Both the position numbers and the translations under genes were made by a program. A DNA stretch of 64,000 nucleotides from Planotetraspora sp. A-T 1434 (GTDB lineage Bacteria > Actinomycetota > Actinomycetes > Streptosporangiales > Streptosporangiaceae), in NCBI RefSeq assembly GCF_025420585.1, contig NZ_JAOEGB010000009.1, positions 62,001 to 126,000 on the forward strand, written 5' to 3'. The notes below the pieces were generated by a model. The model made no database searches. It was not told where the DNA came from and was given only the letters and a program-made list of their open reading frames with translations. Below, piece after piece: positions 8,699 to 63,119 of the stretch (position 1 is the stretch's first letter; every line of letters starts with the position of its first letter).

Positions 8699-8737
8699 GC
8701 CCCCAGGTTAGAGCCCACCCGACCGCCCAAGTCCGGC

Positions 8738-8989
8738 GTGATCATGCACAGGTTCCCGGGAAGAGGCGCGAGCTGGGCAAACGCTGTTCGTGATCATGCA
8801 CAAAGTCCTTCCGGCGGCGCTCGGCCTGCGGAAACACGGTTCGTGACCATGCATGGCGCGAGGTCAAGCAACTGCATGATCACCAATCGGCAAGCCGCAG
8901 GTGGGGGACGGTACCCGGGAACCCGCGCATGATCACGAAGTGGTGATGCGCAGGTAGGAGCCATTGGCAGGGAAGGTGTGCATGATCAC
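8738..8989. repeat. Six-unit intergenic repeat cluster, three forward and three inverted
   Basis: Forward units of the family GTGATCATGCACnnGTTCCC begin at 8738, 8790 and 8843 (the last is degenerate). Reverse-strand units have their GTGATCATGC core at 8872-8883, 8925-8936 and 8978-8989. Spacing is 52-53 bases within each half, so the cluster is a large imperfect mirror. It fills most of the 8699-9108 gap between divergent genes; apart from a likely promoter and ribosome binding site for the MBL gene, I see nothing else there. Confidence 0.85.
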
Positions 8990-9108
8990 GGCGGAGGGTG
9001 GGGGGCTCTCGGCTGGTGGGACTCGGGCTCCGCTCGCTGTACGGCACCTGCAGTAGAACGTTATTCGGTGAGGGGGCACAATCGGGGGTGCGAAAGGGGT
9101 GCGACGGG

Positions 9109-31492: not shown

Positions 31493-31558
31493 GTCCTGTC
31501 TCGCCCCTTGACTCACGCTGCGGAGAACACAGGGGAGCGAAGCCGTTCGGCGGAGACC

Positions 31559-31570
31559 TTGCATGATCAC
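31559..31570 (-). repeat. Single unit of the GTGATCATGCAC repeat family
   Basis: One reverse-strand core (GTGATCATGCAA) lies 69 bases past the 3' end of the GH65 gene, in that gene's orientation. Confidence 0.6.
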
Positions 31571-38311: not shown

Positions 38312-38431
38312 GTGATCATGCACGGGTTCCGCGGTTTGCCGTGTGAACTGCGCCTCCGCCGTACGTGATCATGCACGCGTTCCGTCGAGTGTCGCATGGC
38401 CTGCGGTCATGCCGTACGTGATCATGTAGGC
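38312..38431 (+). repeat. Three-unit repeat cluster downstream of the methyltransferase
   Basis: Units of GTGATCATGCACnnGTTCC begin at 38312, 38365 and 38418 (the last is degenerate), exactly 53 bases apart. They fill the 173-base gap between convergent genes. Confidence 0.85.
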
Positions 38432-38472
38432 GTCGGCGTGCGGCGCTCTGTGGCCGTGTGGTTTTGCCGTAC

Positions 38473-43074: not shown

Positions 43075-43147
43075 GTGATCATGCACAGGTTCCTGCGGGG
43101 TGCTCCCCACCTGGCCCCCCTCCCGCCGTGATCATGCACGGGTTCCC
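43075..43147 (+). repeat. Two repeat units downstream of gmd
   Basis: Full units GTGATCATGCACAGGTTCC and GTGATCATGCACGGGTTCCC begin at 43075 and 43128, 53 bases apart. Four bases after the second unit comes AGGGCCTGTCTGAGAA, which resembles an IS terminal repeat. Confidence 0.85.
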
Positions 43148-44391: not shown

Positions 44392-44821
44392 GTGACCGAT
44401 CACGTGATACGACGCGGCGAGCTGACGGACGCAGCATGGGAGGCGCTGAAGCCCCCTGCTGCCGGCTACCGATGGACCAGGCCGTCCGTGGCGCGACCAC
44501 CGGCAAGTAATCAACGGCGTGTTATGGCGGTTGCGAACGGGTGCTCCCTGGCGTGACCTGCCAGAACGCTACGGGCCGTGGCAGACTTTTTATGAGCGGT
44601 TCGCCCGTTGGGAGCGGGACGGGACCTGGACCCGCCTCCTCGAGCAGATTCAGGCGCGGGACGACTCCGTCGGAGCGGTGGAATGGACGGTGCCGGTGGA
44701 CTCCACCATCAACCGCTCCCACCAGCACGCGGCCGGTGCGCGGAAAAGGGGACGGGCGCGAACGGCGTTCACGGCGGAAGTCCGCACAGGTGGGAACGGC
44801 CGTCCGGGAACCTGTGCATGA
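44392..44821 (+). pseudogene. Truncated, frameshifted IS5-family transposase
   Basis: The start matches an IS5-type N-terminus (ELTDAAWEALKP), but a five-C run at 44452-44456 carries one extra C. Removing it joins the frame to PLLPATDGPGRPWRDHRQV and then VLWRLRTGAPWRDLPERYGP. Homology continues to INRSHQHAAGARKRG near 44755 and stops; the DDE catalytic core is missing. The reading frame then runs into a unit of the intergenic repeat family. It cannot encode an active transposase. Confidence 0.85.
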
Positions 44822-44825
44822 TCAC
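44806..44825 (-). repeat. Inverted repeat-family unit at the end of the transposase remnant
   Basis: On the minus strand this reads GTGATCATGCACAGGTTCCC, identical to the unit at 8738. It lies 26 bases past the 3' end of the P450 gene, in that gene's orientation. Confidence 0.85.
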
Positions 44826-49397: not shown

Positions 49398-49703
49398 ATG
49401 CAAAGGATCGCTCTGCGCACCCGCATCAAGGCGGGCAGCGAGGAGGAGTACGAGAAGGTCCACGCGATCATTCCGGCCGACCTGGACGCCGCCCTGAGGG
49501 AGGGCGGCGTCCACACCTGGCGGATCTGGCGCGACGGCCTCGACCTCTTCCACTACGTGGAGGTGGAGGACTACGCCCGGCTGCAGGAGTTCCTCCGCGA
49601 CCACCCCGCTGACCAGGCGTGGCAGGCCCGGATCAACCCCCTCCTCGACGGCGACTTCGACCCCTCCTCCACCGGGCTTCACCAGGTATGGGAGCTCCCG
49701 TGA
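49398..49703 (+). CDS. L-rhamnose/L-fucose mutarotase family protein
   Basis: A 101-residue protein of the RhaM/FucU-like mutarotase family: IALRTRIKAGSEEEYEKVHA, then VHTWRIWRDGLDLFHYVEVE with the substrate-binding His and Tyr. It interconverts sugar anomers so that the dehydrogenase receives the correct form. In this operon L-fucose is the likely substrate. Its stop overlaps the next start as GTGA. Confidence 0.88.
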   Translation: MQRIALRTRIKAGSEEEYEKVHAIIPADLDAALREGGVHTWRIWRDGLDLFHYVEVEDYARLQEFLRDHPADQAWQARINPLLDGDFDPSSTGLHQVWELP

Positions 49704-50635
49704 ACCTGACCAGGCACGGTTTCGGAGCCGCGCCCATCGGCAACCTGTTCTCGGCCCTGACGGACGAGGAGGCGTTCGCGGCCGTGGACGCCGCCTGGGA
49801 CACCGGGATCCGGCTCTTCGACACCGCACCTCACTACGGCCTCGGCCTGTCCGAGCGGCGGCTCGGGGCGGCGCTGCGGGAGCGGCCGCGCGAGGAATTC
49901 GTGGTGTCGACGAAGGTCGGACGCCTGCTCGTGCCGAGCTCGGCCGGCGGGCGCGACGACCATGCCTTCCGTGACGACCAGGGCTTCGACGTGCCGGCGA
50001 CCCACAAGCGGGTCTGGGACTTCTCCCGCGACGGCGTCCGCCAGTCGCTGGAGGAGTCCCTGGAGCGCCTCGGCCTCGACACGATCGACATCGCCCTCAT
50101 CCACGACCCGGACGACCACTGGAAGGAAGCCGTCTCCGAGGCGTACCCGGCGCTGGCCGAGCTCCGCGACCAGGGCGTGGTCAAGGCGATCGGCGCGGGG
50201 ATGAACCAGTGGCAGATGCTCGCCGGCTTCGTCAGGGAGACGGACATCGACGTCGTTCTGCTGGCCGGGCGCTACACGCTGCTCGACCAGTCGGGCGCGG
50301 ACGAGCTGCTCCCGCTGTGCGTGGAGCGTGGAGTGTCCGTCCTCGCCGGAGGAGTGTTCAACAGTGGCCTGCTGGCCACCCACGATCCGAGCGGGACGTT
50401 CAACTACGCGCCGGCGCCTCCCGAGCTGCTCGAACGGGCCCGGGAGATGGCCAGGGTGTGCGAACGTCACGGCGTCACGCTTCCGCAGGCGGCGATGGCC
50501 TTCCCGCTCCGGCATCCGGCGGTGAAGTCGGTCGTCATCGGCATGCGATCGGCAGCCGAGGTCGAGCAGAACATGACCCTGGCCGCCCAGCCCATCCCCG
50601 ACGCCCTCTGGCCCGATCTCTTCCCCTCGGCGTGA
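49700..50635 (+). CDS. Aldo/keto reductase (L-fucose dehydrogenase candidate)
   Basis: A 311-residue aldo/keto reductase of the D-threo-aldose/L-fucose 1-dehydrogenase type. Catalytic residues are in FDTAPHYGLGLSERRLG (Asp, Tyr) and STKVGRLL (Lys); DIALIHDPDDH carries the His. It should oxidise L-fucose to L-fucono-lactone. GTG 49700 overlaps the mutarotase stop. The TGA stop codon (50633-50635) lies inside the first unit of an intergenic repeat cluster. Confidence 0.88.
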   Translation: MNLTRHGFGAAPIGNLFSALTDEEAFAAVDAAWDTGIRLFDTAPHYGLGLSERRLGAALRERPREEFVVSTKVGRLLVPSSAGGRDDHAFRDDQGFDVPATHKRVWDFSRDGVRQSLEESLERLGLDTIDIALIHDPDDHWKEAVSEAYPALAELRDQGVVKAIGAGMNQWQMLAGFVRETDIDVVLLAGRYTLLDQSGADELLPLCVERGVSVLAGGVFNSGLLATHDPSGTFNYAPAPPELLERAREMARVCERHGVTLPQAAMAFPLRHPAVKSVVIGMRSAAEVEQNMTLAAQPIPDALWPDLFPSA

Positions 50636-50857
50636 TCATGCACGGGTTCCGGATGTGTCCTCTGGCCAGCCGCAACCTTGTGCGTGATCATGCACGCTTT
50701 CCTGGATATGCCCTCTGGCCAGCCCCAGCCCTCGTCGTGATCATGCGCAGGCTCCCGGCCGGGCCGTCGACCAGCGCGAACCCCTTACGTGATCTTGCAT
50801 TGATTCCTCTTTGACCCATCTGACCATGGACATCCCCCATCGTGATCAGGCATGGGG
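50632..50857 (+). repeat. Five-unit repeat cluster between two fucose-pathway genes
   Basis: Units begin at 50632, 50684, 50737, 50789 and 50842, spaced 52, 53, 52 and 53 bases. The first two match the consensus closely and the last two are degraded. The cluster fills the 240-base gap within what is otherwise one operon. Confidence 0.88.
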
Positions 50858-50875
50858 CGTACCGGGAGACTTGAC

Positions 50876-51724
50876 GTGATCGACGCACACCATCATCTGT
50901 GGGATCCGTCTCGGCGGAAATATCCGTGGATGTCCGGCGACGCCCTGACGCCGTTGCGGAAGCCGTACACGCTGGAGGACCTTCGGCGGGAGACGGCCGC
51001 GGCGGGCGTGAGCGGGACGGTGCTCGTGCAGACCGTCTCCGACTCGGACGAGACGGCCGAGTTTCTCAGCACGGCCGCCGCGTCGGACGGCCTGATCGCC
51101 GGAGTAGTCGGCTGGGTGGACCTCACCGCGGCCGACGTGGCCGACCAGGTGGACAAGCTGCGCCACCTGGTGGGCGGCGACCGGCTCGCCGGCTTCCGCC
51201 ATCAGGTGCAGGATGAGGCCGACGCCGCCTGGATCGCCCGGCCCGACGTCCGCCGGGGGCTGCGCGCGATCTGCGACGCCCGCTTGGCCTACGACCTGCT
51301 GGTGCTGCTGCCGCAGCTTCCCGTGGCCCGTGCCGTGGCGCGGGAGACCCCCGACCTGCGGTTCGTGCTCGACCACGCCGCCAAGCCGCCGATCGCCTCC
51401 GGGGAGATGGAGCCCTGGGCGAGCGAGATCAAGGAGATCGCCAAGCTGCCCAACGTGGCGTGCAAGCTGTCCGGCCTCGTCACCGAGGCGTCGTGGACGT
51501 CATGGGAGACGCCGCAGATCTCGCCATATGCCGCCCATGTTCTGGAGTGCTTCGGCCCTGACCGTGTGATGTTCGGCTCGGACTGGCCGGTCTGCGAACT
51601 CGCCGCGTCGTACGGCCAGGTCGTCGAGCTGGCTCGCGAACTCACCGCCGGCCTCTCCGAGCCCGAGCGCGCGCAGGTCTTCGGCTCCACCGCCCAGGAA
51701 TGGTACGGCCTGCCCCGCACCTGA
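50876..51724 (+). CDS. Amidohydrolase-family lactonase (L-fucono-lactonase candidate)
   Basis: A 282-residue TIM-barrel amidohydrolase-2 protein. IDAHHHLWDPSRRKYPWM carries the metal His pair; FVLDHAAKPP and MFGSDWPVCELAAS supply the later His and the catalytic Asp. This is the lactonase/2-pyrone hydrolase group (COG3618), and in this locus it should open L-fucono-lactone to L-fuconate. GTG 50876 has GGGAG eight bases upstream; ATG 50852 is an alternative inside a degraded repeat. With it the oxidative L-fucose route is complete. Confidence 0.9.
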   Translation: MIDAHHHLWDPSRRKYPWMSGDALTPLRKPYTLEDLRRETAAAGVSGTVLVQTVSDSDETAEFLSTAAASDGLIAGVVGWVDLTAADVADQVDKLRHLVGGDRLAGFRHQVQDEADAAWIARPDVRRGLRAICDARLAYDLLVLLPQLPVARAVARETPDLRFVLDHAAKPPIASGEMEPWASEIKEIAKLPNVACKLSGLVTEASWTSWETPQISPYAAHVLECFGPDRVMFGSDWPVCELAASYGQVVELARELTAGLSEPERAQVFGSTAQEWYGLPRT

Positions 51725-62995: not shown

Positions 62996-63114
62996 TCATG
63001 CACAAGTTCCCGTGAGAGGCCGCGACCTCCGGGTCCCCTTTGGTGATCATGCACAAGTTCCCGCGCAGCGGCTCCGGCCTCCCGGATGCCGTTTCGTGAT
63101 CATGCAGGAGGTCC
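62992..63114 (+). repeat. Three-unit repeat cluster between chsH1 and ltp2
   Basis: Units begin at 62992, 63043 and 63096 (spacing 51 and 53). The first contains the chsH1 stop codon. The third has mutated to GTGATCATGCAGGAGGTCC and provides the AGGAGG ribosome binding site of ltp2. Confidence 0.88.
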
Positions 63115-63119
63115 TTCCC

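Follow-up and report, generated by a model that had tools for sequence, protein, structure and literature searches.

The MIRU elements of mycobacteria are intergenic tandem units of 40–100 bp that vary in number and overlap stop codons, and the BOX elements of pneumococcus, also intergenic, contain a variable number of internal tandem units in an A-B-C order. The repeat described here, from Planotetraspora sp. A-T 1434, resembles MIRU in being made of intergenic tandem units within this range of lengths, in overlapping stop codons and in changing by whole units so that their number varies, and it resembles BOX in its variable internal tandem units. MIRU are not known to have its inverted dyads, its C-rich leader, its short invariant core or its dialects, and it differs from BOX in having symmetric dyads and no A-B-C box order. 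With REP/BIME elements, including the GTAG- and CGTC-tagged superfamilies, it shares a high copy number and an extragenic position downstream (3′) of genes (accessible parts of PMC3733652 and PMC2817692), and the available text of PMC3733652 describes further features that are also found here: a location mostly in same-direction and convergent gaps, units that are often paired in opposite orientation, and a constant tag beside a variable remainder. The GTAG or CGTC tag that REPs carry at one end of a 20–40 bp palindrome was not seen; the repeat has instead GTGATCATGC(A), as read from the consensus, an 11-bp, near-palindromic tag that is combined with tandem 53-bp units. GTAG REPs are associated with a tyrosine transposase (RAYT), whereas the domain PF01797 is absent in 15 of 17 carriers of the present repeat. 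The available text of PMC3733652 contains none of the terms actinobacteri, Streptomyces, Actinomycetales and Mycobacterium, and, in the accessible part of PMC6006769, the Actinobacteridae sampled carry only subclass 1.1 Y1 transposases. In the open-access literature no description of the repeat was found by core letters or by topic, the listed papers among those matching the core letters being unrelated by title save for a table of ARG boxes. We consider the chances about even that the repeat is a dispersed extragenic element of a REP/BIME-like kind, with a core that a putative factor reads as DNA.

Repeat units in the window and the genome

The window, by which we mean the whole 64-kb stretch of DNA that was analysed, contains 15 units matched at ≤3 mismatches by the pattern GTGATCATGCACnnGTTCCC, which was used for window and genome alike; the mean was 0.03 in 100 shuffles, none of which reached 15. 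When degraded copies were added (12-base core, ≤2 mismatches) the number rose to 21 (Table 1). An earlier note on this DNA had claimed about 21 intergenic units, and this figure and its coordinates are correct, although it spoke of eight places and listed seven. The alternating spacings of 52, 53, 52 and 53 bp that it gave for the five-unit array follow from the starts in Table 1, and the spacing of 53 at 38312 and 43075 was reproduced with the 12-base core at ≤2 mismatches. The place at 8738-8989 was also rightly located, but its nature as an inverted dyad, with three cores facing three and no direct array, had been overlooked. The gene at 50876 begins GTGATCGACGC, and because this is close to the core, the start of the gene could stem from a decayed unit.

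Table 1. Repeat units and flanking genes in the window
Feature	Position	Strand	Remark
Complete dyad with outer flanks (left C-rich, right G-rich)	8723..9004		three + cores facing three - cores
Dyad left arm, unit 1	8738..8757	+	pattern match, ≤3 mismatches
Dyad left arm, unit 2	8790..8809	+	pattern match, ≤3 mismatches
Dyad left arm, innermost core, degraded	8843..8862	+	12-base core match
Dyad right arm, innermost core	8864..8883	-	12-base core match
Dyad right arm, unit 2	8917..8936	-	pattern match, ≤3 mismatches
Dyad right arm, outer unit	8970..8989	-	pattern match, ≤3 mismatches
Single unit	31551..31570	-	12-base core match
Array unit 1, 12 bp past a stop codon	38312..38331	+	pattern match, ≤3 mismatches
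Array unit 2	38365..38384	+	pattern match, ≤3 mismatches
Array unit 3, degraded	38418..38437	+	12-base core match
Array unit 1	43075..43094	+	pattern match, ≤3 mismatches
Array unit 2	43128..43147	+	pattern match, ≤3 mismatches
Single unit	44806..44825	-	pattern match, ≤3 mismatches
Upstream gene, aldo/keto reductase (PF00248)	49700..50635	+	flanks five-unit array
Five-unit array, unit 1	50632..50651	+	overlaps stop codon TGA 50633-50635 of upstream gene
Five-unit array, unit 2	50684..50703	+	pattern match, ≤3 mismatches
Five-unit array, unit 3	50737..50756	+	pattern match, ≤3 mismatches
Five-unit array, unit 4, degraded (GTGATCTTGCAT), in phase	50789..50808	+	12-base core match
Five-unit array, unit 5, degraded (GTGATCAGGCAT), in phase	50842..50861	+	12-base core match; directly ahead of downstream gene
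Downstream gene, amidohydrolase (PF04909)	50876..51724	+	start codon inferred
Array unit 1, overlapping upstream stop codon	62992..63011	+	pattern match, ≤3 mismatches
Array unit 2	63043..63062	+	pattern match, ≤3 mismatches
Array unit 3, runs into AGGAGG and ATG	63096..63115	+	possible ribosome site and next-gene start, by sequence reading

Across the whole genome (7.78 Mb, 136 contigs) there were 805 matches at ≤3 mismatches, against 6 for the reversed pattern, and 667 at ≤2 mismatches, against 2. Since 59 non-carrier relatives gave 1–42 matches at ≤3 mismatches (reversed controls 0–12), the reversed control is too lenient and the true background lies nearer 20 than 6; the 60th relative in this comparison, G022, is a carrier with 728 matches. 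The genomic excess of units stands against a background of about 20. The earlier note had named chance frequency and random spacing as the two signs that the family is not an organised element: the units are far above chance, and randomness of spacing is ruled out because, of the 128 same-strand neighbours no further than 120 bp apart, 110 sit at 51–54 bp. The latter count was made with the 9-mer GTGATCATG in the 864-kb sample used for anatomy (two 400-kb stretches of the genome plus the window), where facing cores, located by the same 9-mer, show no fixed distance. Neighbours with unlike spacers are still in register (90 of 96 at 51–54 bp). The consensus of 173 units from this sample has a strong core at positions 1–12 and 16–19 and a variable remainder, which bears out the 20-base core described previously, and a weak second motif, TGACCTGCG, appears around unit positions 33–41. 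The elementary core is (C)GTGATCATGCA, with CnnGTTCCC as its extension in this genome; read from the sequence, (C)GTGATCATG(C) is a near-palindrome, CRTGA/TCAYG.

Placement, dyads and RNA structure

Placement was taken from a home-made gene caller, the errors of which blur the counts: 131 of 236 units lie in same-direction gaps, 69 in convergent and 11 in divergent gaps, 22 in called genes and 3 at stretch edges. Expressed by gap, elements occupy 21 of the 74 convergent gaps, 41 of the 287 same-direction gaps and 3 of the 108 divergent ones, and only 13 of 180 exact cores are inside called genes, though 84% of the 864-kb sample is coding. Among the arms with at least two units, 76 of 77 could be assigned a position; 51 of these come after a stop codon in sense and 25 do not, the distance from stop codon to sense arm having a median of 16 bp (43 of 51 within 50 bp). 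Within same-direction gaps, arms pointing away from the stop are barely commoner (26 vs 20), a bias that is weak because dyads carry both orientations. One array lies inside a called gene near its 3′ end, probably a gene for a membrane protein (G000 contig C1 239714-241192, L024-L025); the reverse strand of this array would read as the amino acids NLCMIT, and some copies may be translated.

Two layouts occur, namely single arms (+++ or ---) and dyads such as +++---. A dyad measures about 300 bp, each arm comprising two outer 53-bp units and an inner core, and the two arms face a centre. The leader ahead of the outer core is C-rich (52% C in sense arms, 55% in other arms), compared with 34–38% C shortly past stops in gaps without units. 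Alignments of whole dyads from different loci reach 80% over 299 bp, and 479 of the 1653 possible pairs among 58 elements match at E≤1e-8, many of them through cores alone. Dyads fold much better than shuffles (median z -6.8, 18 of 21 dyads folded), with an RNA fold of -150.5 kcal/mol and a z of -7.5 for the window dyad at 8723..9004. Single arms were found to be without RNA structure (median z -0.74 for the sense and -0.65 for the reverse strand, 25 of 32 folded), control convergent gaps are intermediate (median z -2.2, 25 of 39 folded), and the five-unit array of the window has a z of -2.2. The RNA-structure element suggested by the earlier note is therefore upheld for dyads and fails for single arms on either strand. 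There were 0 matches to Rfam in the window at the gathering score.

The same data bear on a host 3′-end module, in which arrays and dyads would be terminators or insulators between genes and the core would be kept as an RNA or termination signal. C-rich leaders recall Rho loading sites, and the placement past stop codons and in convergent gaps, the folding of dyads, and an apparent hairpin followed by a T run at the last core of one locus (locus A below; five species, by eye) are all as this explanation expects. Single arms, however, are even less structured than the control convergent gaps. Compensatory change was not found in the central hairpin, where both arms match at 16 of the 295 positions that deviate, in a test that is blurred because the core is near-palindromic. 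In addition, the five-unit array is flanked by genes of one direction, relatives have it in reduced form or lack it, and the core is patchy within one genus (328 exact cores in G432 and 0 in G388). We regard such a module as unlikely; termination by dyads is plausible but secondary.

Turnover and constraint between species

Comparison of orthologous gaps, which the earlier note had proposed, was made in a frame of one 55–59 kb contig from each of five species of genus g23, these contigs being collinear, and revealed arrays that differ by whole units or are absent between species. Four cores are retained in all five species at locus A, arms differ by whole 53-bp units at locus B, and at locus C the unit number varies, the array being nearly lost in G239. 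Locus D is filled only in G237 and locus E only in G240, each being empty in the other four species; at locus D, the one clean filled/empty case, inspection by eye showed no target-site duplication of the sort left by a classical MITE. The locus of the five-unit array has 5 cores in the window, 3 in G240 and 1 each in G237 and G239, with no intact core in G022 or G238, where a decayed one may remain. Of the interpretations first offered, a mobile or VNTR-like repeat fits best, in view of the whole-unit differences, loci D and E, and the similarity of whole dyads.

Cores and spacers evolve at different rates. Divergence at locus A is 0.046 in the core vs 0.316 in the spacer across five species (0.024 vs 0.226 without G240), and at locus B 0.025 vs 0.221 across four species, so that cores diverge 7–9 times less than spacers. 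Spacer indels are scarce, with 2 gap openings per 223 substitutions (26 comparisons) vs 96 per 1856 (108 comparisons) in core-free gaps (Fisher p 0.003), G022 being a member of every pair, so that the pairs are not independent. Given the slow divergence of cores and the few indels in spacers, both the core and the spacing look constrained.

A passive VNTR- or MIRU-like repeat, whose units tandem duplication and gene conversion would keep alike without a function or a dedicated factor, would account for the gain and loss of whole units between species. It also agrees with the finding that neighbouring units within an arm are more similar than random pairs (0.387 vs 0.316, p 0.0009), whereas outer units of opposite arms are not (0.327 vs 0.316). 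Slippage nevertheless leaves unexplained the slow cores beside fast spacers, the low-identity neighbours that stay in register, and the occurrence of the same 11-mer with different extensions in distant families, and we think it very unlikely that the repeat is passive.

Carriers, dialects and candidate partners

Nine of 341 genomes of the family have 57–667 matches at ≤2 mismatches (the present genome 667, five species of genus g23 113–398, G074 103, G075 130 and G128 57) and the other 332 have 0–7; other dialects are undercounted here because the pattern is that of the present genome. The bare core GTGATCATGCA was sought in 296 genomes of the class, a sample that contains none of g23, g60 or G128, and nine have at least 24 exact copies (the present genome 824, G373 413, G432 328, G579 106, G491 90, G371 45, G414 35, G109 28 and G399 24), the rest having 0–11. 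These carriers are scattered over several distant actinobacterial families. Presence is also uneven among close relatives: besides the contrast of G432 and G388, G074 and G075 carry hundreds of copies vs almost none in the less complete G076. A wider pattern, CCCCN{0,8}GTGATCATG, gave more than 22 matches in six of 394 genomes, all already known carriers, and 11 and 4 matches in the weak core carriers G399 and G414. At least nine stretches match the single-unit pattern: three belong to Planotetraspora and one to Actinomadura alba, and the five others each show a lone exact unit. In two of the Planotetraspora stretches (L059, L060) there are 53-bp arrays, in which the core is mostly followed by TTCG. 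A paired-unit pattern gave 0 matches across genome contigs, a search from which own or near records may be left out, and no viral contig had an exact match to the dialect of the present genome.

The constant part GTGATCATGC(A) was recovered in 14 genomes sampled by that core (4–218 sites per genome), and the extension that follows it is fairly uniform within a genome, less so in G399 and G239, and differs between lineages. It is AATCCCGCCACCC in G373, ACGTTCGCCCC in G491, ACGCCAGCGCACC in G579 of the same genus, A(C/G)ATCnTGGG in G432 and AGTTGTTC in G074 and G075. Within g23, G240 has mostly GTGATCATGCAGAA (AGAA) vs mostly GTGATCATGCAC (AC) in its four congeners, and this holds also at the retained loci A and B. 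The shared 11-letter core in scattered distant relatives suggests a putative protein that recognises the repeats and spreads or maintains them.

The period is less widespread than the core. In g23 it is exactly 53 bp in 49 of 53 neighbours, but 51–54 bp was found in only 3 of 12 neighbours in G373, 1 of 34 in G432 and none of the three in G491 and G579 together; among the carriers measured, a survey that left out G074, G075 and G128, the 53-bp period is seen only in the present genome and this one related genus. Because the other carriers sampled differ, phasing does not extend to the family as a whole. This weighs on the phased array for a nucleoid protein or regulator that the earlier note had raised, a host protein being bound to cores five helical turns apart: the constraint on the core, the indel deficit in spacers, the regular spacing here and in g23 and the register kept by neighbours with unlike spacers speak for it, and the little phasing in G373 and G432, the strong differences in copy number between species and the dispensability of arrays at some loci speak against it. 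It is, in our estimation, distinctly unlikely. ArgR is regarded as general in actinobacteria and for that reason would not explain the patchy carriers. One ARG box listed in the available part of PMC5839063 contains the core.

Other arrangements were noticed in individual carriers. In G399 and G414, two genera of one family, facing cores start exactly 49 bp apart in 8 of 8 pairs among the matches listed (L129, L187, L188, L236), and one G399 pair viewed in full is a 60-bp hairpin; such pairs may represent a young and compact version of the element. In G373 (L112, L115, L118, L120, L121) a second repeat with CAGAATGCTGGGTT-like arms, which often form inverted pairs, lies between or beside the repeat arms.

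The dialects also invite comparison with the DNA uptake sequences of competence systems, which act through a pilin receptor. In Neisseriaceae these sequences combine a constant core, species dialects, high copy number and terminator-like inverted pairs at gene ends (PMC3630211, accessible part). The present cores are rare in genes (13 of 180, at a coding fraction of 0.84), whereas intragenic uptake sequences are called common in the same part of that paper; phased tandem units, whole-dyad paralogues and carriers scattered over several families are likewise unlike uptake sequences. An uptake function thus appears extremely improbable. No literature was found that joins uptake sequence, Actinobacteria, inverted repeat and terminator.

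With regard to a partner protein, RAYT was rejected, PF01797 being present in 9 of 32 genomes, of which 2 are among the 17 carriers and 7 among the 15 others. DUF222/13E12-HNH proteins were rejected as a universal partner: all 17 carriers have them, as do 9 of the 15 other genomes, and linkage to the core is not general. In G432 a core is found at 23 of 27 DUF222-HNH loci (L191-L217), all 23 exact and upstream of the domain in the direction of the gene, and these paralogues may share one ancestral association with cores. Among the matches listed elsewhere, upstream cores accompany 1 of 4 DUF222 loci in G373, 0 of 2 in G579 (one with a downstream core) and 1 of 1 in G022, and cores accompany 0 of 4 in G491, 0 of 5 in G388, 0 of 1 in G399 and, near the gene, 0 of 1 in G414; in the present genome 2 of 18 loci have a core, one of them with one mismatch. 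For L218-L237 core positions were used and not ORF limits, which have a one-base offset. The sequence TTCGAACATGCGTT lies upstream at 12 of the 27 G432 loci and resembles a LexA (SOS) box. Ten proteins beside or between elements, translated and judged by eye, included none resembling a transposase, and no trans-acting factor was found among PF01797, DUF222-HNH and element-adjacent proteins.

The REP/BIME-like reading rests on two lines of argument. Whole-dyad paralogues, filled and empty sites and patchy carriers suggest a dispersing element, and cores that evolve slowly beside fast spacers of fixed length, together with dialects that change in concert, suggest a core that is recognised as DNA. 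The elementary site is the near-palindromic core (C)GTGATCATGCA with a lineage-specific extension of about 8–12 bp, packed in the present genome and one related genus into 53-bp tandem units, and arms of two to five cores after a C-rich leader stand alone or face each other as a ~300-bp dyad. Copies would spread to new intergenic places, their arms grow or shrink by whole 53-bp units, and they would persist chiefly at the 3′ ends of genes, being least harmful there, and rarely in divergent promoter gaps. A putative trans-acting protein would recognise the core as double-stranded DNA and would either mobilise the element or bind it in the service of the host. If several cores on one helix face were bound, this would account for the slow divergence of the core, the fast divergence of the spacer and the scarcity of indels, and the hairpin or terminator behaviour of dyads would be a secondary effect. 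A shift in the specificity of the factor would explain the change of dialect at several loci at once, although gene conversion without any factor could also change dialects in concert. More tentatively, and with the balance of probability against it, there may be a recognition system scattered over Actinobacteria in which a putative protein reads the fixed 11-bp core together with a lineage extension, dialects are rewritten jointly at many sites and, in one lineage, sites five helical turns apart place several copies of the protein on one face of the DNA.

REP-like repeats have been treated mainly in Proteobacteria, as far as the accessible parts of the REP papers go, and the kind known best is linked with a single transposase family. 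The element described here would be their counterpart in Actinobacteria, distinguished by a long core that does not vary, by strict spacing in one lineage and, in most carriers, by the lack of a REP transposase. Its dialects differ even within a genus (G491 vs G579; G240 vs its congeners), and the contrasts between close species (G432 and G388; G074 and G075 vs the less complete G076), along with the filled and empty loci, make both its spread and its partner directly testable. If the reading as a recognition system is true, the protein could represent a new class of partner for REP-like repeats that lack a tyrosine transposase.
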